Shown here: one piece after another, positions 17,955-30,115 of the stretch
How positions within the stretch are numbered: the first letter of the stretch is position 1
How the letters are laid out: each line of letters opens with the position of its first letter
Origin: a virus
Strand: one strand, 5' to 3'
DNA: 38,422 nt
Virus record (IMG/VR): IMGVR_UViG_3300037010_000653
Span: 1-38,422 of that record
Notes under the pieces: generated by a model
Told to the model about the DNA's origin: nothing
Database searches by the model: none
The model's input: the letters and a program-made list of their open reading frames with translations, nothing else
Position numbers and translations under genes: made by a program

Positions 17955-18257
17955 ATGTATTACGTGTCTAACACGTCCCCTAAGGGGAACCGCTCAATGA
18001 GTATCAGGAGCCAGGCTGAAGCCGATGCGCGCTGCAAAGCGCTTGATGAGGCTGGCTGCATCGGCTGCGTGGATTGTATCGACTGCACCGGCTGCACCGG
18101 CTGCACCGGCTGCGTGGATTGTATCGACTGCACCGGCTGCACCGGCTGCATTTCCTGCGCAGGCTGCGTGGACTGCTTCCATTGCCTTAACTGCGCAGAG
18201 TGCATGAATCTCGCCGGTCGCGGCCATGTTCGCGGTGCGCCGGGGTATATTGTCTAG
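17955..18257 (+). CDS. Cys-triplet repeat protein (100 aa, 17 xxC units in a row)
   Basis: ATG 17955 follows AAGGAGAGAGT. Residues 1-33 are ordinary. From Gly34 to Cys84 every third residue is cysteine, in units such as [20 protein letters not shown] and AEC: seventeen consecutive xxC units. A short tail ends GAPGYIV. The DNA holds a 45-bp repeat (GGCTGCGTGGATTG at 18063 and 18108). Possible roles are binding many metal ions or a rigid disulphide or three-residue-period rod; neither is proven. It is upstream of the clamp-like gene and is probably co-transcribed. Confidence 0.8.
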
Positions 18258-18271
18258 GAGAGAGGACCATC

Positions 18272-18823
18272 ATGGAAAACACCATCAATATCGAAGTTCT
18301 TCGCGCCCTGCTTCCTTTGGCGGCTAAAAACGATGTTCGTTTTTACCTTAACGGTGTCTACGTCGATTTTCAGGCGGACAAGACTGTTTACGTGGCAACG
18401 AACGGCCATGTCCTCGGCAAGTATGTCGAAGAAGTAGGGAATGGGCATACGTTCTCTATCATCATCCCGTATGACGTGGTGAAACAGCTTAAAGTCGGGC
18501 GCGGGACGGCGAAATATGGCGACCTCATTTTTAACCCGGATATGAACGCGGCCCGCATCGTCAACCCCGCTGCTAGCCAGGACTTAGGTTTCACCTCGAT
18601 CGATGGCAAGTACCCGGACTACACCAAAGTAATCCCGGAAGAGCCAAGTGGCGAAGTGGCTCAATTTGACATCGAGCTACTGTACCTTTTCGCCCAGGTC
18701 AACAAGGCGTTCGGCTCGAAAATCCCTGGCCGCGTCAAGATCGACCATAACGGCGAGCGGGGTGCGCTAGTGCATTTGTCGCGCAGTGAATTTACCGGCG
18801 TTATCATGCCCGTCCGTCTCTAA
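18272..18823 (+). CDS. Half-length beta sliding-clamp-like protein
   Basis: The 183-residue product has beta-clamp phrases in the right order: RFYLNGVYVDFQADKTVYVATNGHVLGKYVEE, IIIPYDVVKQLK, SIDGKYPDYTKVIPEE, and a C-terminal EFTGVIMPVRL. The last matches the MPxRL end of bacterial DnaN. Bacterial DnaN has about 366 residues in three domains; this protein holds about one and a half. A ring of several copies, or competition with the host clamp, is possible. TAGGAGAGAG lies 14-23 bases before the ATG. Clamp identity is from motif reading. Confidence 0.75.
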   Translation: MENTINIEVLRALLPLAAKNDVRFYLNGVYVDFQADKTVYVATNGHVLGKYVEEVGNGHTFSIIIPYDVVKQLKVGRGTAKYGDLIFNPDMNAARIVNPAASQDLGFTSIDGKYPDYTKVIPEEPSGEVAQFDIELLYLFAQVNKAFGSKIPGRVKIDHNGERGALVHLSRSEFTGVIMPVRL

Positions 18824-19003: not shown

Positions 19004-19242
19004 TCCCCCGCACTGTCAATCTCGTTGCCGACTTGCTGATGCGCTCCCCCGAGCCACTCAGCATCCGGCAAATTGCAACCGGAATCCGCCGCCCCGTGCG
19101 CAGCGTATCCAACGTGATCTTGCGCCTACGCCGTGCTGGCCTGGTCGAAGATGCCGAAGTGATTAAGCCACTTGGAACCCGGCGCGTGACGCTATATCGG
19201 TGGGGCGGTGAGGACGCTTGCGGAGGCTGGAGTAAGTTATGA
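19000..19242 (+). CDS. Winged-helix DNA-binding protein (80 aa)
   Basis: The chosen ATG (19000) overlaps the preceding stop and has GGAG nine bases upstream; an in-frame ATG at 18985 lies inside the preceding gene. Residues 1-70 fit a winged helix: VNLVADLLMRSPEPLSIRQIATGIRRPVRSVSNVI (helices, with the recognition helix at about 29-42), then LRRAGLVEDAEVIKPLGTRRVTLYRW as wing. It probably regulates transcription of early genes. The function is inferred from the fold pattern. Confidence 0.7.
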   Translation: MIPRTVNLVADLLMRSPEPLSIRQIATGIRRPVRSVSNVILRLRRAGLVEDAEVIKPLGTRRVTLYRWGGEDACGGWSKL

Positions 19243-19892
19243 ATATCAAAACCTTGGTGGGAGCTGTTCGTGCTCTACTTTCTGGCATGACCAAAAAGAA
19301 GATGCAAACAACAAACACGGACGACTACTCTATTGCTACGAACACATGCTACCGCTCGACGGCTACAAACACAGGCGCCTACTCGGCGGCCACAAATACG
19401 GGCGATAGATCGACGGCCACAAACACTGGCTACTGCTCATCAGCCACGAACACAGGCAATTACTCGGCGGCCACAAATACGGGCGATAGATCGACGGCCA
19501 CAAACACTGGCTACTGCTCATCAGCCACGAACACAGGCAATTACTCGGCGGCCACAAATACGGGCGATAGATCGACGGCCACAAACACTGGCTACTGCTC
19601 ATCAGCCACGAACACAGGCAATTACTCGGCGGCCACTAACACTGGCGACTACTCGGCGGCCGAGGTGAACGGTTCCGAATCCGTTGCCGCCTCGCTTGGC
19701 GTAGAAGGGCGCGCCCGTGCTTCCGCTGGCGGCGCTATCGTCCTTTGCTACTACGACGATGAAACCTGCGAACTGCTTCATATCCGCGCCAGCAAGGTAT
19801 GGGAGAACGGTATCAGGCCAGGTGTTTGGTATTCACTGGACGCCGACGGAGAGTTTATTGAAGTGAAATCTGACGATAGCAAGGAGTGTTAA
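19239..19892 (+). CDS. ATNTG nonapeptide-repeat protein
   Basis: The start overlaps the upstream stop (ATGA). After a short N-terminus come about fifteen 9-residue repeats of the form ATNTG(D/Y/N/A)xSx (residues about 30-145). A conserved C-terminal domain follows with SVAASLGVEGRARASAGGAIVLCYYDDETCE and GIRPGVWYSLDADGEFIEV. This repeat-plus-domain pairing is known in phage and prophage proteins without assigned function; the repeats may form a beta-helix. DNA repeats are exact over 81-bp units, so the length may vary between strains. Confidence 0.85.
   Translation: MNIKTLVGAVRALLSGMTKKKMQTTNTDDYSIATNTCYRSTATNTGAYSAATNTGDRSTATNTGYCSSATNTGNYSAATNTGDRSTATNTGYCSSATNTGNYSAATNTGDRSTATNTGYCSSATNTGNYSAATNTGDYSAAEVNGSESVAASLGVEGRARASAGGAIVLCYYDDETCELLHIRASKVWENGIRPGVWYSLDADGEFIEVKSDDSKEC
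19380..19622 (+). repeat. Three identical 81-bp tandem repeats
   Basis: Units begin TACTCGGCGG at 19380, 19461 and 19542, and a fourth partial, diverged unit begins at 19623. Each unit codes for three nonapeptides. The three copies look identical base for base, which points to recent expansion or to frequent correction by recombination. Confidence 0.95.
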
Positions 19893-20711: not shown

Positions 20712-20882
20712 ATGAAACCCAATTACGGATCGGTAACGCACCGCATTGCAGTGCTGAAACGCGCCCAAGAATGCCGCGAGCGCAGGCGTCTATACCGTAA
20801 CTATTACGAACCGACGCCGTTCGAGAGACTGGCCCACATTGAGCGTCTCATTACCATGCAGCGCACGGAGAAAGTAAATTGA
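20712..20882 (+). CDS. Small basic protein before the polymerase (56 aa)
   Basis: It starts five bases after the upstream gene and ends with TGA overlapping the TTG start of the polymerase. The product MKPNYGSVTHRIAVLKRAQECRERRR.. is Arg-rich and mostly helical. Translation is probably coupled to the polymerase; no domain is recognised. Confidence 0.55.
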   Translation: MKPNYGSVTHRIAVLKRAQECRERRRLYRNYYEPTPFERLAHIERLITMQRTEKVN

Positions 20883-22633
20883 CGACAATCTATATCGACT
20901 TTGAAACGTATTACGACAAGGACTACTCTTTGTCGAAAATGTCCACGGAAGAATATATCCGGGACGCGCGGTTCAAGGTGCATGGGTGCGCCTATTGCCT
21001 CGATGATAAGCCCGTCCGGTGGGTGTCCGGTCCGTCGGCGTCCGCGCCCTTGCTACGTCTTGCGCAAGACTATCCAAACGCATCCTGGTGCGCCCACAAT
21101 GCCATATTCGATATGGCTATCCTGTCCTGGCACTACAATATCAGGCCGTGCAGCATCGTGGACACGCTCAGTATGGCGCGGCTGGCCGATGTGTATGGCA
21201 AGCATTCCCTGGCGGCGCTGAGTGAGCGATACGGCTTAGGCGCTAAAGGCGACGCGCTGGTCAAAACCCTTGGCGTGCGTGATCTTGACCCCATGCTGAA
21301 GACGCAACTGGCCGAGTATTGCAGGCAGGACGTGGAGCTATTGCGCAGACTGTACCGTGAGCTGGATACCGCGCTTCGGTCGGAGATTCCAGATACTCGA
21401 TACAAACGCGAGATGAGTCTGATCGACTGCACGGTGCGCATGTTCACTGAGCCGGTGCTGACAATCGACGCGGCGCTACTTCAATCGCGGCTGGTGGAGC
21501 TGGAGGCACAGCGCGACGCTGCGACAGCCGCGTCGGGGGTGGGCGTTGATGTGTTGATGAGCAACCAGCAGTTTGCCGCAGTGCTTGCGTCGCGTGGTGT
21601 CCAGGTTCCTGCATCCTTGCGTAAGACCGACCCTGACATGCTGGCGCTCAAGGATGACCCGCGAGTATCGGCGCTCATCCAAGGCCGGTTGGCGGCCAAG
21701 AGTGTGTCGGAGCTGCGCAGGACGGCCAAGTTTTTGAGCGTAAGCGGGCGTGGCCTGATGCCTGTACCGCTCAAATACCACGGTGCGCATACGGGCCGCT
21801 GGTCGGGCGCGGACGGTTTGAACATGCAGAACTTGAACCGTGGGTCTGCGTTGCGCAAATGCTTGACGGCCCCGGACGGGTATGTGCTGGTTGTCGTGGA
21901 CTCAAGCCAGATCGAGGCGCGCGTGCTCGCGTGGCTGGCCGGACAGGATGACTTGCTGGCGCAGTTTGCGGCTGGTGAGGATGTGTATGTCAAGTTTGCG
22001 GAGCGGATATGGCCTGGGGAAAAGATCGACGAAGTTAGGCGCTTTGTAGGAAAAACCTGCATTCTTGGACTTGGCTATGGGGTCGGGCATGCCAAACTGC
22101 ACGCACAGATCATCACTAAGCAGCCGGAGGCGACTCTTGAGGACGCGCAGCAGTATGTCGCTACGTACCGTAACGCTTACGGTGCGATCACGCGGCTTTG
22201 GAAGCACGCGGACATGATGTTGCGTGCGATGATGCAGGAAGTGCGTATCGACTGGATGCGCGGCATTGCGACGGAGTTCGAGAAACTTCGCTTACCGTCT
22301 GGCCGTGTGCTACGTTATCCTGGCTTGCACCTGACGCCGGACGGGTATGAGTATGGCGTGGGTTCGGACAAGCGCAAAATCTACGGTGCTGCGCTGGTCG
22401 AAAACATCGTCCAGGCCATCGCCCGCGACATCGTGGCTGACCAGATGCTCGCCATCCGTAGTCGGTATCGCGTGGTCACTATGACTCACGATGAGGTTGT
22501 CTTTTTGGCACGAGAAGGCGAGGCGGGCGAAGCGTTCGAGTTTGCGGAACGTGTGATGCGTGCGGCACCGGGCTATGCGGAAGGTGTGCCGCTGAATTGT
22601 GCAGGCGGATATGCGAGGAACTATTCAAAATGA
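20879..22633 (+). CDS. Family A DNA polymerase with 3'-5' exonuclease domain
   Basis: The frame begins with TTG at 20879 behind GGAGAAAG; the stop of the previous gene overlaps it. The exonuclease motifs are IDFETY (D7, E9), AHNAIFD (D78) and YCRQD (Y147, D151). The polymerase motifs are DSSQIEARVLAWLAG (D341), RFVGKTCILGLGYG (R388, K392) and THDEVVF (H537, D538). At 584 residues it is a compact replicative polymerase of the T7-like/Pol I class with proofreading; no 5' nuclease is present. It copies the phage genome. Confidence 0.95.
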   Translation: MTTIYIDFETYYDKDYSLSKMSTEEYIRDARFKVHGCAYCLDDKPVRWVSGPSASAPLLRLAQDYPNASWCAHNAIFDMAILSWHYNIRPCSIVDTLSMARLADVYGKHSLAALSERYGLGAKGDALVKTLGVRDLDPMLKTQLAEYCRQDVELLRRLYRELDTALRSEIPDTRYKREMSLIDCTVRMFTEPVLTIDAALLQSRLVELEAQRDAATAASGVGVDVLMSNQQFAAVLASRGVQVPASLRKTDPDMLALKDDPRVSALIQGRLAAKSVSELRRTAKFLSVSGRGLMPVPLKYHGAHTGRWSGADGLNMQNLNRGSALRKCLTAPDGYVLVVVDSSQIEARVLAWLAGQDDLLAQFAAGEDVYVKFAERIWPGEKIDEVRRFVGKTCILGLGYGVGHAKLHAQIITKQPEATLEDAQQYVATYRNAYGAITRLWKHADMMLRAMMQEVRIDWMRGIATEFEKLRLPSGRVLRYPGLHLTPDGYEYGVGSDKRKIYGAALVENIVQAIARDIVADQMLAIRSRYRVVTMTHDEVVFLAREGEAGEAFEFAERVMRAAPGYAEGVPLNCAGGYARNYSK

Positions 22634-22956
22634 GCGACTATTGCGTGAAGTGCGGAGTAGAAGACGGTAAGTGGCATCGTGACACATGCGCTTTTGCCGG
22701 GACGGTTTTCGTTGCGAACAAACGTCGGCTTGTCGATAGCTACCAGATCGGCGGCGATCACTACATGGGTCTGGCAGTGAAGCCTTGGGTCGCAATGCAG
22801 TCCTGGATGAGCAGGGCTGAGTTTGAAGGCTTCCTGCGCGGGAATGCGATCAAGTACCTTGCGCGCGCGGGATGGAAGGGCGACGACCTGCAAGACTTGA
22901 AGAAAGCCTTGCACTATCTTGAGAAACTGGTGAGCGTGAAGGAGAACGGCGAATGA
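22630..22956 (+). CDS. DUF3310-type protein with N-terminal zinc-finger-like segment
   Basis: Its ATG (22630) overlaps the polymerase stop. Residues 1-20 hold YCVKCGVEDGKWHRDTC, a possible CxxC/HxxxC metal site. Residues 35-100 have the DUF3310 pattern YQIGGDHYMGLAVKPWVAMQSW.. FLRGNAIKYLARAGWKGDDLQDLKKALHYLEKL. DUF3310 proteins are common in phages, often in nucleotide-metabolism or replication modules; the reaction is not established. Confidence 0.85.
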   Translation: MSDYCVKCGVEDGKWHRDTCAFAGTVFVANKRRLVDSYQIGGDHYMGLAVKPWVAMQSWMSRAEFEGFLRGNAIKYLARAGWKGDDLQDLKKALHYLEKLVSVKENGE

Positions 22957-23603
22957 TTTATTCCTATTCCAGCCTGAGCTGCTACCTGAAATGCCCGCAG
23001 CAGTTTTACCGGAAATACAAAGCGAAGGACACGCTGCCTTATCGAAGTAAGGAGGTGTCGAGCGGGATTGAGATTCACGAAGCGATTGAGACTGCGCTTA
23101 AGACGCGCACGCCGCTTCCTGAGCCGCTGACGATCTACGAGGAAACCATCAGCTGCGTGCGCAACCGCATCGACAATGCGCGGATCGAGCAGACGATCTT
23201 CCTTGACGATAAGTTCAACTACGCTGTGATAAAGCCGCCCAAAGGGTTTGTGGCGAAGCTGGACGTGCTGCTTATCAGCAACGACGGTAGGCGCGCAGTG
23301 GTGTGCGACTGGAAAAGTGGCAAGCCCTACGAGGACACGTTGCAACATGACTGCTACGCTCTCGCCGTGCTCAAAGCGTTCCCCGCCGTGGAAATAGTGA
23401 CCGGGTTCAACATCTACCTGAACCACGGCAAGGTGGGTACGGAAGTAGTGCATGAGCGGTGCAACCTTCAAGCCGTCGAGGATAAGCTCGCTCGCATCGT
23501 CGCGCGGATCGAAGCTGACGAGCGGTGGGCGCCCAAGCCTTCGCCACTTTGCGACTGGTGCGGCGCAAACAAGTGCGGGCTTTACCCGAAGAAGGATGTC
23601 TGA
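22953..23603 (+). CDS. PD-(D/E)XK (RecB/Cas4-like) nuclease with possible Fe-S cysteines
   Basis: The 216-residue product starts with SYSSLSCYLKCPQQFY, a typical RecB-family N-terminus, and contains GIEIHEAIE (H42), AKLDVLLI (D104), CDWKSGK (D119, K121) and Q131. The last part holds CDWCGANKCGLYP. Cys10, Cys14, Cys200, Cys203 and Cys208 could form a 4Fe-4S cluster like that of Cas4/AddB nucleases. It probably processes DNA ends during replication or recombination. The start overlaps the preceding stop (ATGA). Confidence 0.9.
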   Translation: MIYSYSSLSCYLKCPQQFYRKYKAKDTLPYRSKEVSSGIEIHEAIETALKTRTPLPEPLTIYEETISCVRNRIDNARIEQTIFLDDKFNYAVIKPPKGFVAKLDVLLISNDGRRAVVCDWKSGKPYEDTLQHDCYALAVLKAFPAVEIVTGFNIYLNHGKVGTEVVHERCNLQAVEDKLARIVARIEADERWAPKPSPLCDWCGANKCGLYPKKDV

Positions 23604-24294: not shown

Positions 24295-24587
24295 CGCCCG
24301 AAGGCAAAGTGAAGGCCGAGATCAAGAAAGTCCTGGCCGAGTATGGGTGCTGGTATTTCATGCCCGCCATGAACGGTTACGGGCGGACGGGGATACCGGA
24401 TTTTGTCGGTTGCTACAACGGCGTGTTCTTTGCGATCGAGGCGAAAAGCGCAAACGGCAAGCTGACGCCGAACCAGGAGCGTGAGGTTGCCGCTATTCGA
24501 CAAGCACACGGTGCTGTAACCGTGGCCTACAACGGTAATGACGTAAGGGGGATGTTGGATGCAATTAGCGTACAGTGCAAAGCATAA
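24291..24587 (+). CDS. VRR-NUC domain nuclease
   Basis: The 98-residue product has the VRR-NUC pattern: MTPEGKVKAEIKKVLAEYG, then MNGYGRTGIPDFVGCYNGVFFAIEAKSANGKLTPNQ with G-IPDF and the E-AK catalytic set (ExK), and a C-terminal helix. Such stand-alone nucleases act on DNA structures in phage replication or Holliday-junction-like intermediates. It overlaps the helicase gene by 29 bases. Confidence 0.9.
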   Translation: MTPEGKVKAEIKKVLAEYGCWYFMPAMNGYGRTGIPDFVGCYNGVFFAIEAKSANGKLTPNQEREVAAIRQAHGAVTVAYNGNDVRGMLDAISVQCKA

Positions 24588-26130
24588 CGTGGTCGGCTGG
24601 CCTGGCCTAGCCGAGCCTGAACGAGTGGCGCGCGCAATTCCTGGCGCGCGGGTTGTCAAGGATGTTGTGGTCGCGCCTGTCGATTTGCTGGCAATGACCG
24701 CCGCTGCGCACATCGGCCTGCCAGTCAAGTCGCCCATTGAGACGAGCTACGACTGGCCGCGCTCGCCATCGATCGAGAAGCCGATGGCCCACCAGATCGA
24801 AATGGCGCGATTCCTGACCACGCACCCGCGTTGCCATAACCTGTCCGAACCGGGAACTGGCAAGACACTCGGCAATCTGTGGGCCAGCGACTATCTGTTG
24901 GGAGTGAACGCCATTACTAAGGTGTTGATCGTGGCCCCACTGACCACGGTCTATAGTGTCTGGCGTGACGCAATCGGGGAGCATCTCCCAGGGCGCAGAC
25001 GGTCGAGCGTGCTGCACGGAAGTGTGAAGCAACGACTCGAAGCGTTAGAGCGTGACGCGGACTATTACATCATCAATAACGAGGGGCTGGCTATCAACGC
25101 GGTGCGCGAAGCGATCATGGCTAAACAGACATCGTGGCTGATTATTGTGGATGAGAGCCACAAATACCGGCATCCGACGACCGCGCGATGGAAGGCTTTG
25201 CGCAATCTGATTCGTGGGTTGCCGAACCCGCTGGTCTGGTTGAATACGGGCACGCCCACGCCGCAAGAGCCGACCGACGCCTACGGCCAGCAGGCGTTGA
25301 TCGACAAGCCCAAGACGAGCTATCGGGCGTTCCGTAACACCGTGATGCGGCAAGTATCGAACTTCAAGTGGGAGCCGATTCCGAACGCGGAGAATATCGT
25401 TGGCGAGTTCATGCAGCCTGCGATCCGGTTCCGGCGCGACGACTGCATCGACTTGCCGCCAACGACCTACGAGTACCGCAAGGCGGAGATGACGACCGCG
25501 CAGCGCAAGGCGCTTGATGAGTTACGCAAGAAGATGCAGTGGGCGCTTGACAACGGTGCTGAGATTACGGCGGTGCATGAGGGGGCGCTACGTATCAAGA
25601 TTTTGCAAATCCTGGCTGGCGCGGTTTATGACAAAGACCACCAGGCGCATGATGTGGACGCCGCGCCCAGGCTGGCCCTATTGCGCGACATCGTGGACGA
25701 ATGCGACCGGAAGATCATCGTGTTTGCGCCGTTTCAGAGCATCGTCAAGCGGGTTGCAGACGCGCTCAAGGCTGACTACTCGGTAGCTGTAGTGTCGGGC
25801 GAGACGAGTCTGAGTGACCGCACGCAGATTTTCGCAGACTTCCAACAGAAGCCTGACCCGCGTATCATCGTCGCTGACCCGCGCACCATGAGCCACGGCT
25901 TGACACTCACGGCGGCCAATACGATCGTCTGGTATGCACCGGCGGACGGCGGAGATGCCTACGTGCAGGCGAACGCCCGCATTCAGAGGCCGTCGCAAAC
26001 ATCTCACACGAGAATCTTACATGTGTTCGTTGACGCACTAGAACGTGCAATTTACTGTAGGAACCAAGCACGCCAGTCCCTACAGAACCTCGTCATGGCG
26101 TGGATCAATGGAGAGAGCTATGGAACTTAA
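24559..26130 (+). CDS. SNF2/DEAD-like superfamily 2 helicase
   Basis: The 523-residue product has Walker A EPGTGKT (K102), VLIVAPLTTV (Ia), VDESHKYR (D198, DExH) and WLNTGTPTP (III). In the second RecA domain it has IIVFAPFQSIVKRVADAL, ADPRTMSHGLTLTAANTIVWYAP and a QANARIQRP motif VI. This is the SNF2-like phage type that remodels or unwinds DNA during replication or repair. A GGGG site precedes the ATG. Confidence 0.9.
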   Translation: MQLAYSAKHNVVGWPGLAEPERVARAIPGARVVKDVVVAPVDLLAMTAAAHIGLPVKSPIETSYDWPRSPSIEKPMAHQIEMARFLTTHPRCHNLSEPGTGKTLGNLWASDYLLGVNAITKVLIVAPLTTVYSVWRDAIGEHLPGRRRSSVLHGSVKQRLEALERDADYYIINNEGLAINAVREAIMAKQTSWLIIVDESHKYRHPTTARWKALRNLIRGLPNPLVWLNTGTPTPQEPTDAYGQQALIDKPKTSYRAFRNTVMRQVSNFKWEPIPNAENIVGEFMQPAIRFRRDDCIDLPPTTYEYRKAEMTTAQRKALDELRKKMQWALDNGAEITAVHEGALRIKILQILAGAVYDKDHQAHDVDAAPRLALLRDIVDECDRKIIVFAPFQSIVKRVADALKADYSVAVVSGETSLSDRTQIFADFQQKPDPRIIVADPRTMSHGLTLTAANTIVWYAPADGGDAYVQANARIQRPSQTSHTRILHVFVDALERAIYCRNQARQSLQNLVMAWINGESYGT

Positions 26131-26464: not shown

Positions 26465-26572
26465 TCCAGTGCAGACGCGGCGCGTTGCCGCGCCACTTGA
26501 AGAATGACTCAGGTAGTTTTGAGTCGAGTTACGGCATTGCGCCGTTGTTTAACCTGCGAAAAGGAGCGAAGT
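26465..26572. promoter_or_regulatory. Intergenic segment with three successive stem-loops
   Basis: The 108-base gap holds GGCGCG/CGCGCC (26479-26494), GACTCA/TGAGTC (26506-26525) and ACGGC/GCCGT followed by TGTTTAA (26531-26552). The third is a weak terminator-like element. AAGGAGCG then precedes the next gene. The cluster may cut or pause transcription between the helicase unit and the primase unit. Confidence 0.6.
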
Positions 26573-27598
26573 ATGAGTAATCTGACCACTAAAACCACGA
26601 GCTTGCCGACTGTTGTGGGGCTGTCTAGTCTTGCGGCTGACGCAATCAGCGGTGTATCGACCGAAGCCCGCATGTTCCCTGAGATCAGCATCAAAGGCGC
26701 ACGCTGGCGCTTGCGTATGCTCGATGGCGAGGAGCATGTGTTGAACTCGTTCAACATCCAGTTTGCGCTGATTGCGGCAAACCCGGCCAAGAGCAAGACG
26801 TTTTATCTCAACAAGTATGACCCGGACGGTGAACCCCGCGCCCCGGACTGCGCTTCGGACAACGGTATTCGCCCCAACGACGGCGTTGAGCACCCGCAAT
26901 CGCCGTCTTGCGCGAACTGCCCGCACAATGTGTGGGGCAGCGACATCAACCCGGTGTCGGGCAAGAAAAACAAACGGTGTAAAGACTCCAAGCGCATCGC
27001 CGTCATGCTGGTGGGCGACCCCGGCGCGCAGATTTTTGCGTGGCGGCTCTCGCCCATGAACATGCTGTCGTTCTCCGACGCCGTGAAGGACGCTGTGCGC
27101 CAGAACATCGACCTGGAGCGAGTGGCGTTCGATGCAGCGTTCGATGCCAAGAGCGATTACCCGCGCGTGGTGTTTACGATCAAGCGCCCGTTGACCGAGG
27201 AAGAACTGCACGCTGCATCGCAGTTGCGCCAGAGCGAAGGCGCAAAGGCCGCAGTCGGTATGGGTGCGCCGATGTTCGTTGCGCCTGTTCGGGTGGTCGT
27301 GGCGGAAGCCGTGACGGAAGCCGTGACAGATGGTGCTCGCAATGACTATCTGAGCCGGGCATGCTACGCCAAAATTAAGAATGGTGTGGAAGGCGATGCG
27401 CTAGTGACTGAAATGCTTGCACTTAACGAGTCCAAGTGCGTGCCGCCGCTACCCGAGTCCGAGGTGTTGGCAATTGTTCATAGCAAAGAGCAACGGGATA
27501 ATGCTCCTGCGCCGGAAAAGGTAACACCACTTCCCAGGCCCGAGGCCAAGGCGGTGAAAGCTGAAACGCTTGATCTGGACGCTTTGCTCGGCGATTGA
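26573..27598 (+). CDS. Zinc-knuckle protein with C-terminal PriCT segment (possible ssDNA-binding)
   Basis: The 341-residue product has a central cluster SPSCANCPHNVWGSD..KKNKRCKDSKRIAVM (C-xx-C..C), of a type present in phage proteins of unknown function. A long beta/alpha region with FAWRLSPMNMLSFSDAV follows. From about residue 256 it has NDYLSRACYAKIKNGVEGDA.. LNESKCVPPLPESEVLAIVHSKE, which matches the PriCT (primase C-terminal) pattern and is almost the same as residues 193-246 of the next gene. The acidic C-terminus (LDLDALLGD) resembles ssDNA-binding protein tails. Single-strand binding or primase assistance is inferred. Confidence 0.7.
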   Translation: MSNLTTKTTSLPTVVGLSSLAADAISGVSTEARMFPEISIKGARWRLRMLDGEEHVLNSFNIQFALIAANPAKSKTFYLNKYDPDGEPRAPDCASDNGIRPNDGVEHPQSPSCANCPHNVWGSDINPVSGKKNKRCKDSKRIAVMLVGDPGAQIFAWRLSPMNMLSFSDAVKDAVRQNIDLERVAFDAAFDAKSDYPRVVFTIKRPLTEEELHAASQLRQSEGAKAAVGMGAPMFVAPVRVVVAEAVTEAVTDGARNDYLSRACYAKIKNGVEGDALVTEMLALNESKCVPPLPESEVLAIVHSKEQRDNAPAPEKVTPLPRPEAKAVKAETLDLDALLGD

Positions 27599-27649: not shown

Positions 27650-30115
27650 ATGATCCAAGACTATCTACGGTTAGGGTTGGCACTTGTCGCTATACCACGG
27701 GATGAAAAAAGCCCAAAGGGGCGATGGCTGGATCGAAGATGCGAGGATATTGCGCGGCTTGGACGCGGCAATGTAGGCATCAACCACGCACTTTCTGGCA
27801 CCTGCTGCCTTGACGTTGACGACTCCACGCTATTTAAGGCGTGGTGGGTCGCGCAGGGGTTCTCGCTTGACGCGCTCAAGCAGATTATTGCTGCGTGCCC
27901 CGTTTGGATGAGCGGCAGGCCGCGCCGCTGGAAGGCGCTATTTCGCGCACCGGAGGGTATGCGCACACTCGCCCTGCACCATCACGGGTTTGAGCTGCGA
28001 GCAGCCGGTGGGCAAGACGTGTTGCCCCCGTCGGTCTTTGTTGACGAGGATGGCACTCCGTGGCAATACCACTGGATCAACGGCTTGCCGTCGTCGCTGG
28101 ACGACGTGCCGATGCTGCCAGCGAAGTTACTTGCTAAGGCACGGGCAACCCCACGCCAGGAAAGCCCGCTGGACGCACCTACGGGAATGTTGGCGGCGGT
28201 CTTGGGCGTCATTACGGAAGGTGGCCGCAATGACTACCTGAGCCGCGCCTGTTACGCCAAGATCAAGGCTGGCGTGGAGGGCGACGACCTGGTGGCCGAA
28301 ATGCTGGCACTGAACGAGTCTAAGTGCATGCCGCCGCTACCCGAGTCCGAGGTGCTGGCGATCATTCGTAGCAAAGAACGGCTCGGCATCGAGCCAGCGC
28401 CGGAGGTTGAGCAATGGAAGGCGCTGGCACCGTTCATACCCGATGGATACCGCCTTCATGCAGGCACCTTGCAGGTCAAGGTGAAAGACGAAGAAAGCGA
28501 CGATACGACATGGGACACATTGTTGCACTACCCGATTGCCGTAACGAACGTGATCCGCATTCCTGGCGTGCAGGAGCAACGATACATTGAAGTGACGGTG
28601 CTCAACCCGCACGAAGCAAAACACCACTTGACTATGGTGCAACTGAGTCGGGAATTTGAGCAGGCGCTGAACAACATCGGCGTGAGCGTGTTCGGCAAGC
28701 GCGCAACTTGGGTGAAGGCGTTTCTGATTGCGTCGAAAGAGAAGTTGGAGCGGGAGCAAAAAGTGATGAACTCATACAAACAATTCGGCTGGCAAGCGGA
28801 CGGCAGTTTCCTTGTCGGCAACCGGCTTTACCGCGCAGGCCAAGTGCCCGTGCTAGTGCATCTGGAACCGCACGCTGCGCAATTGGCGCGGTATATGCCC
28901 CTGGTTGGAGACGTGAACGCATGGCGCGAGGCGGCGTTGCCCCTGCTGTGCGGCGATAGCCCCAAGCAGACCTTCGCGTTCATGTGCTCGCTGGCCGCGC
29001 CATTGATGAAGCTGTCGGGCGAACGCGGCGGCATCCTGTCGCTGGTCGGCCCTTCAGGACAAGGCAAATCCACTGTGCAGAGCGCAATTACGAGCGTGTT
29101 CGGAACGCAAGAGTCCGCATTCAGCAAGGCGCAGGACACCGAGAACGCGCGAGTAGCGTTTCTATCCATCATGCACAATCTACCCGTGCAGGCCGAAGAA
29201 TTGACAAAGCTCGACGGCCAAAAGCTCGCTACGCTCGCCTATGACGTATCCGAAGGTCGGGACAAACGGCGGCTTGACCGCTCGGGCCACATGCGCGAAA
29301 TGATCCCGGAGTGGCATACCATCCTAACATCAAGCAGCAATACGTCCATCATTGAGAAGCTGATGGACTTGGGCGCAATCCCGGAGGCTTTCCGCGTGCT
29401 AGAAATGCGCGTGACACTGCCACCCAACGCCCGCTTGCAGGATGGTGACATGATGAAGCGCCTGCTGATGGCGAATGCCGGGTCTGCCGGGCACGTCCTG
29501 GCGCAATATTTGGTCGATCACAAAGACTTGATCGCGCAGGGGCTGGAAAAGGTCAAGCACGCATTGCAGGCGGTGACCCAGGCCCCGACCGAAGAACGTA
29601 TTCGCATCAACATGGTCGCTGGTGCGGCCATGATGGCCCGCGTTGTCAAGGCGGCGCTAGGAATGCCCGTCGATGCGAACGCTGTGCTGGAATTTGGCCG
29701 CGACCTGATTCTGGCTGAACGGGAGCACCGCAGCGCCTACGAGTCGGATGCGACACAAACGCTTACAGACTTCATCAACGAGAACATCTCGCATTGCGTG
29801 CAGACTAACATGCAGAACGTAGTGTTCGACCTGATCCGCACCACGCCCCCCTACACCATGCGCTACGAAGCGCCTAGCCGCACGCTTTACATCTCTTACT
29901 CGCTCATGCGCCGCTATGCGTTGCAACGACGGCTGGATTGGGCGGACGCGCAACGCGAACTGCGCAAAATCGGAGTGCTGCGCGGCTTGCGCAAAGTGAC
30001 GCTGACCAAGGGAATGACGGGCGTCCCCCCGCAAGGGCAAACGCAATGCCTCGAAATCGACGCCGACCGGCTTGGTTTCGAGTTCAAGCAGGAGGGCGAG
30101 GATCAAGTAGCGTGA
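27650..30115 (+). CDS. Primase-polymerase/helicase fusion (prim-pol + PriCT + DUF927 ATPase)
   Basis: The 821-residue product begins like a prim-pol domain (YLRLGLALVAIPRDEKSPKGRWL) with the acid set CLDVDDS (D55, D57, D58). PriCT follows at 193-246. The ATPase region has SLVGPSGQGKSTV (Walker A 467-475) and later LTSSSNTSIIEKLMDLGAIPEAFRVLEMRV, a DUF927 pattern. It probably primes synthesis and unwinds the fork for the family A polymerase. The ATG has no ribosome site and sits just after a terminator, so expression is probably low. It ends overlapping the leftward gene by 13 bases. Confidence 0.85.
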   Translation: MIQDYLRLGLALVAIPRDEKSPKGRWLDRRCEDIARLGRGNVGINHALSGTCCLDVDDSTLFKAWWVAQGFSLDALKQIIAACPVWMSGRPRRWKALFRAPEGMRTLALHHHGFELRAAGGQDVLPPSVFVDEDGTPWQYHWINGLPSSLDDVPMLPAKLLAKARATPRQESPLDAPTGMLAAVLGVITEGGRNDYLSRACYAKIKAGVEGDDLVAEMLALNESKCMPPLPESEVLAIIRSKERLGIEPAPEVEQWKALAPFIPDGYRLHAGTLQVKVKDEESDDTTWDTLLHYPIAVTNVIRIPGVQEQRYIEVTVLNPHEAKHHLTMVQLSREFEQALNNIGVSVFGKRATWVKAFLIASKEKLEREQKVMNSYKQFGWQADGSFLVGNRLYRAGQVPVLVHLEPHAAQLARYMPLVGDVNAWREAALPLLCGDSPKQTFAFMCSLAAPLMKLSGERGGILSLVGPSGQGKSTVQSAITSVFGTQESAFSKAQDTENARVAFLSIMHNLPVQAEELTKLDGQKLATLAYDVSEGRDKRRLDRSGHMREMIPEWHTILTSSSNTSIIEKLMDLGAIPEAFRVLEMRVTLPPNARLQDGDMMKRLLMANAGSAGHVLAQYLVDHKDLIAQGLEKVKHALQAVTQAPTEERIRINMVAGAAMMARVVKAALGMPVDANAVLEFGRDLILAEREHRSAYESDATQTLTDFINENISHCVQTNMQNVVFDLIRTTPPYTMRYEAPSRTLYISYSLMRRYALQRRLDWADAQRELRKIGVLRGLRKVTLTKGMTGVPPQGQTQCLEIDADRLGFEFKQEGEDQVA

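Follow-up and report, generated by a model that had tools for sequence, protein, structure and literature searches.

A half-length phage relative of the DnaN sliding clamp that keeps the peptide pocket and lacks the dimer contact

The short clamp gene and its neighbourhood

The window, by which we mean the whole stretch of viral DNA analysed here (38,422 nucleotides, IMG/VR record IMGVR_UViG_3300037010_000653), holds a gene for a short DnaN-like protein, hereafter the window clamp, which sits within a replication cluster. Besides the features given below, the window also holds genes for a VRR-NUC protein and for primase-polymerases.

18256..18265, + strand: purine-rich ribosome-binding site, AGGAGAGAGG, seen in the sequence
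18272..18823, + strand: short DnaN-like clamp protein of 183 amino acids, a member of PHROG 3007 by profile, fold and sequence matches
20879..22633, + strand: family A DNA polymerase with a 3'-5' exonuclease domain (PF00476, 97.4 bits; exonuclease domain, 39.6 bits)
22953..23603, + strand: PD-(D/E)XK exonuclease (context)
24559..26130, + strand: SNF2-type helicase (context)

The clamp reading frame runs on the (+) strand from an ATG at 18272 to a stop codon at 18821-18823, with AGGAGAGAGG ending 6 bases ahead of the ATG, and its product ends in VIMPVRL. Because its codon differences from six relatives (72-78% protein identity) fall mostly on third positions, for example 27/23/70 in L037, this is by its codon pattern a real, maintained gene. 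Several other reading frames were noted around it. The one immediately upstream of the clamp (17955-18257, +) carries many CxxC-type repeats and has similar ORFs at 9 of 49 clustered loci, and another at 19239-19892 (+) has short near-perfect peptide repeats (ATNTGDRSTATNTGYCSSATNTGNYSA) and no Pfam match. Two adjacent primase-like genes lie at 26504-27598 (+), with PriCT_1, and at 27650-30115 (+), with Prim-Pol, PriCT_1 and DUF927.

Profile searches bore out the clamp signatures, among them the terminal VIMPVRL, that a preliminary description had picked out in the translated sequence. Pfam PF02767 (the DnaN central domain) matched at 28.9 bits against a cut-off of 27, the PHROG 3007 profile matched over the whole length at 109.9 bits (residues 4-183 on 4-186 of 190), and profile-profile alignment (hhalign) with 22 full-length clamps gave a probability of 99.95 and an E of 1.6e-37, with sequence matches to solved DnaN chains reaching an E of 2.4e-8 at best. 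TIGR00663 (dnan) gave a partial match confined to the middle of the model, at 48.6 bits where a whole protein would need 137.65, and a match of 50.5 bits to PHROG 947 ('processivity factor') aligned residues 8-157 with 137-282 of 368. The estimate that the protein is about half the length of DnaN was likewise right, at 183 amino acids against 366 in E. coli.

Predicted fold, missing parts and conserved pocket

A single-chain model of the window clamp, predicted with 49 diverse short relatives as input, reached a mean pLDDT of 93.7 and a pTM of 0.90 and is confident along nearly all of the chain. Its residues 1-183 superpose on residues 126-366 of E. coli beta, a target span of 241 residues of which the window clamp skips some 60-70. 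Most rows of the alignment pair 172 residues, with an rmsd of 2.2-2.6 Å, 24% identity and Z of 14.6-17.3; among the 50 DnaN entries listed by structural alignment, Z ran from 14.6 to 18.4. L048, a further member with 38% identity to the window clamp, was predicted to take the DnaN fold likewise (pLDDT 92.2, Z up to 17.0). An unrelated fold, or a lack of profile similarity to DnaN, either of which would have spoken against a clamp, was checked for and did not occur, and by profile and predicted fold together the protein is a homologous member of the DnaN / beta clamp superfamily.

DnaN has three domains, each made of two beta-alpha-beta3 repeats. The window clamp consists of DnaN domain 2 (repeats 3 and 4) and one further beta-alpha-beta3 repeat of domain 3, assigned from the model and profiles as follows.

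18272..18439, + strand: residues 1-56 (repeat 1), the N-terminal half of DnaN domain 2; contains DVRFYLNG and ATNGHVL
18440..18634, + strand: residues 57-121 (repeat 2), the C-terminal half of DnaN domain 2; contains DGKYPDYTKV, with pocket residues P115, K119 and V120
18635..18820, + strand: residues 122-183 (repeat 3), matching DnaN repeat 6, the C-terminal half of domain 3; ends in VIMPVRL

The DVRFYLNG and ATNGHVL segments of repeat 1 belong to the pocket and to the loop that contacts DNA in E. coli. When residues 122-183 alone were set against profiles of the six DnaN repeats, they matched repeat 6 at an E of 5.7e-11, repeat 5 at 0.007 and the other four at 0.06-0.63. Whole-length MAFFT and hhalign alignments put the C-terminal helix on repeat 5 and not on repeat 6, and that helix taken alone leaned to repeat 6 over repeat 5 with E values of 0.0014 and 0.0037, too close to separate the two, which we count against the explanation favoured below. 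These alignments would suit either a deletion of the whole of repeat 5 or the formation of a hybrid of repeats 5 and 6.

Under either of these readings, E. coli residues 1-125 (domain 1) and 282-305 (the strand with I305) have no counterpart in the window clamp. Domain 1 and the I305 strand of domain 3 are the two sides of the head-to-tail DnaN dimer contact, and the title of structure 3pwe names R103C/I305C as the engineered pair. Because both sides of that contact are missing, the window clamp cannot close a DnaN-type dimer ring; it has neither the three domains per subunit of a canonical DnaN nor its domain 1 / I305-strand dimer contact. The stretch preceding the last long helix forms no strand in either monomer model (window clamp or L048), as expected for a modelled edge whose partner is missing in the monomer.

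What was kept includes the peptide-binding pocket between domains 2 and 3, for which we used the list of known DnaN pocket residues. All ten key pocket columns of the superfamily align in the window clamp, are kept in 41-49 of the 49 short members (L26 in 49, T43 in 46, G45 in 46, H46 in 43, P115 in 49, R/K119 in 44, V/I120 in 47, M179 in 44, P180 in 47 and R182 in 41) and rank among the most constant positions across these members. The pocket histidine is substituted in 6 of the 49, four of which are close relatives of the window, a point that weighs against our favoured explanation. Basic residues recur among the 49 members at helix positions 11 (80%), 19 (69%), 142 (63%), 145 (65%) and 150 (78%), as would be expected if the helices still face DNA, and would speak for a tether. 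The short family also bears marks that are absent from the full-length consensus, namely SGExAQF, which precedes the final helix, and an HNG motif within the third repeat.

A separate observation concerns the C-terminus, where 37 of the 49 members extend at least 10 residues past the MPMR strand, with a W in 21 of these tails, 19 times in a PxW-like setting. The L048 tail (residues 173-190) was modelled by AlphaFold at a pLDDT of ~80 with a short helical turn, and such tails may fold back onto the body of the clamp or serve to bind a partner. They are mostly missing in the window group, and EP23-like clamps also have none. The polymerase C-termini PPAWAxGLPL resemble the PxW tails of some short clamps, which we regard as a curiosity since EP23-like clamps are without the tail.

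Spread of the short clamp and its polymerases

Judged by its sequence matches, the short-clamp gene is not a one-off, as it belongs to PHROG 3007 and occurs in hundreds of phage records. A search of 50,697 phage records with the window clamp matched 248 at E <= 1, 198 of which cover at least 80% of the query, and a search with the EP23 protein matched 284 at E <= 0.01, 269 of them covering at least 80%; both totals (248 and 284) take in some full-length clamps. Two classes can be told apart by where the DVRYYL motif lies, which is ~19 residues from the start in short and ~147 in full-length forms. The PHROG 3007 profile matched the window clamp and all 49 short members over their whole length, and the 49 share the same architecture at identities to the window clamp that go down to 24%.

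Common annotations of short clamps are 'DNA pol III beta subunit' and 'RusA-like resolvase', and among 60 rows listed for the window clamp query, 17 carried 'RusA-like Holliday junction resolvase', which is the name of PHROG 3007 itself (examples are L016 9070-9585, L017 8992-9504 and L202 2995-3531). Bcep781 gp15 is annotated as 'DNA Pol III b subunit fragment', and BcepC6B gp31 was probably annotated too short, to judge from homology that starts 69 bases before the annotated start (L016 9001-9070). The literature searched, largely without subscription journals, yielded no study of the structure or function of a short phage clamp, though Kazlauskas and Venclovas 2011 (NAR 39:8291) may treat one. 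Short forms have long been annotated, and we make no claim that the architecture is unpublished. For phage AH2, a short form of 209 amino acids is annotated (PMC3483164).

The preliminary description had placed the clamp beside a family A polymerase and laid stress on that enzyme. The polymerase is present by its PF00476 match, but it lies about 2 kb downstream with several small ORFs between, so that 'beside' was loose, and the stress on it was weakened by a wider census of polymerases. This covered 25 records (21 with short and 4 with full-length clamps; 13 of the 25 for family B) and then 16 more (6 short, 10 full-length), all chosen by hand, with fragments included and with close relatives among them (BcepC6B/L035/L036; L109 and L110, which have an identical protein; EP23/L022-L024; L025/Bcep781), so the counts are not independent trials. 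A family A polymerase was found in 13 of the 27 short-clamp records (12/21 and 1/6) and, by the models used, was lacking in the other 14; among full-length-clamp records it was found in 1 of 14 (0/4 and 1/10), with one further weak partial match. No family C polymerase was detected in any of the 41 records, short and full-length together, and no family B polymerase in the 29 records searched for it, namely the 13 first-batch records without family A and the 16 of the second batch. By this sample, a family A polymerase is no fixed companion of the short clamp, whose partner in many phages is likely to be a host protein. The clamp loader domain PF13177 was found in none of the 27 short-clamp records, which means that any loading would be host-dependent or unneeded; the host clamp loader could serve, or the protein could do without loading.

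Closer to the gene, the family A polymerase of BcepC6B is the next gene upstream of the short clamp, in a replication cluster. Within 6 kb of the 49 short clamps, an ORF similar to the window polymerase lay near 16; many of these loci are short fragments or related to one another, and we prefer the whole-record counts. A search for clamp-binding motifs gave the stress on the polymerase no further footing, with no canonical motif in 12 window genes (the polymerase and 11 others). A relaxed scan of the polymerase frames of the window and of 22 loci returned few matches, which appear to fall either on the conserved core of the polymerase or on its exonuclease portion and from which we claim no polymerase-clamp contact. 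The sole relaxed match in the window polymerase, QDDLL, falls within the polymerase domain, where it seems to belong to the conserved core.

A side observation on these polymerases is an in-frame insert of ~287 residues with intein features (GKT/CLAADTKV ... IIVHN/C) in close relatives of the window, at L038 11390-14008, L040 6264-8882 and L046 10193-12811, as well as in L006. The insert site is empty in the window polymerase (~22058). EP23 likewise has a long polymerase frame, with a split profile match.

Possible roles and comparison with known systems

The explanation that we favour, and to which we would give about an even chance, is that the protein is a DnaN-derived pocket module that would tether replication proteins, probably those of the host, to the DNA of the phage, perhaps assembled into a ring of four. 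By alignment and model, the clamp is here pared to its protein-gripping part, in which domain 2 and the last repeat of domain 3 jointly build the peptide pocket; this pocket would bind the clamp-binding peptides of replication proteins and hold these proteins at the phage DNA. Because no family A, B or C polymerase was detected in about half of the phages sampled, we infer host partners, and in most phages the peptides would come from the host polymerase III alpha and clamp loader delta subunits; since the pocket is kept, binding of host clamp partners is possible. A deletion pattern in which ring closure is lost and grip is retained would suit a tether, an adapter and a decoy alike.

Because the canonical dimer interface is deleted, a ring of several subunits would need a new interface. 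Within a clamp domain, one half is related to the other by pseudo-symmetry, so that two copies of the last repeat could make one whole domain. With less confidence, we suggest that the orphan half-domain would pair with the same half-domain of a second subunit, and that a ring built from two of these pairs would contain 4 x 3 = 12 repeats, as many as the rings of DnaN dimers and PCNA trimers. A specific geometry, which we offer tentatively and as a doubtful one, would be a new clamp architecture, with four identical 3-repeat subunits in a two-sided ring with in-plane two-fold axes, orphan first strands swapped between the half-domains of neighbours, and DnaN-type pockets on both faces; known clamps have their pockets on one ring face. 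Mean-field coupling analysis (104 sequences after filtering, effectively 73) did not clearly show the contacts expected of half-domain pairing, which we list among the points against this part of our favoured explanation although the signal was too weak for a decision; residues 126-133 coupled chiefly to the HNG loop (159-163), and the top 60 couplings linked them just once to the C-terminal strand (129-175).

The main rival to a tether, unlikely in our judgement and yet to be taken seriously, is a monomeric decoy or adapter that encircles no DNA and competes with host DnaN for clamp-binding peptides, with the effect of shutting down host replication or of diverting the host polymerase III and clamp loader. 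The loss of both dimer-contact sides with the pocket retained would suit such a protein, as would the 14 short-clamp records without family A and the lack of families C and B in the records searched for them, and in several phages the short-clamp gene sits amid structural genes, outside the replication cluster. A pure decoy, however, would have no need of conserved basic residues on DNA-facing helices, and the gene lies in the replication cluster in both the window and BcepC6B.

We consider it improbable that the protein is a dedicated processivity factor for the phage's family A polymerase. That enzyme is encoded 2 kb downstream in the window and next to the clamp in BcepC6B, and the census found it in a larger share of short-clamp than of full-length-clamp records, but it is missing from about half of the short-clamp records sampled, and neither the window polymerase nor 11 other window genes have a canonical clamp-binding motif, QDDLL being the sole relaxed match in that polymerase. 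A decaying remnant of a full-length DnaN gene, whether of phage or host, is very improbable. A relative in one lineage, that of Serratia phage Rovert (L200 2998-3555), is indeed degenerate, being without DVRYYL and the C-terminal MPMRL, and this we also count against the tether, and Bcep781 gp15 bears the word 'fragment' in its annotation; against a remnant stand an architecture and pocket conserved in 49 members across the identity range given above, the codon pattern of a maintained gene in the window, and the 198 of 248 matching phage records that cover at least 80% of the query. We dismiss a RusA-like Holliday junction resolvase, for which the database name of PHROG 3007 on many records is the one thing that speaks, and take that name to be wrong, as the RusA Pfam family has no match at E <= 0.001 among the 49 short members, 47 of the 49 match PF02767 as the sole family listed, and the predicted fold is that of DnaN.

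The gene stands in hundreds of phage records under the label of a clamp, which it cannot be in the usual way, or of a resolvase, which it does not resemble. Its anatomy turns the question of why there should be half a clamp into two, namely what peptides the pocket accepts and whether two copies of the half-domain pair with each other. If the ring is true, it would be a new way of building a clamp, and if the decoy is true, phages would possess a compact inhibitor of the bacterial clamp, which is itself a drug target.

The PHROG 3007 proteins of Shigella phage EP23 (p08), Burkholderia phage BcepC6B (gp31) and Bcep781 (gp15), at 26-31% identity, are similar to the window clamp in length and motifs, and most PHROG 3007 proteins end in an MPMRL-like strand; many of these relatives, though not EP23, have an extra C-terminal tail that the window clamp lacks. 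Bacterial DnaN has the domain 2 fold, the peptide pocket and the C-terminal MPMRL strand in common with the window clamp, whereas its domain 1 and one repeat of its domain 3, and hence the dimer contact, are missing from the latter, and the name 'beta clamp' should be qualified for a protein that falls short of the three-domain and dimer-contact features. Full-length phage DnaN homologues (PHROG 947; Rhizobium phage 16-3 p081; KL1 gp28) are phage-borne members of the same superfamily, but they run to ~350-390 amino acids and the window clamp matches their middle part only; KL1 gp28 is a full-length DnaN homologue of 386 amino acids (PMC3483164). PCNA and T4 gp45, which we compared by database searches only, have two whole domains per subunit against one and a half in the window clamp. 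According to the review PMC9690074, DnaN dimers and PCNA trimers both have six domains per ring, and fewer domains per subunit are offset by more subunits in the trimers of PCNA and T4 gp45. The window clamp joins a known phage family, and its anatomy, as read from sequence and model, is a clear clue to the way in which it must depart from a normal clamp.
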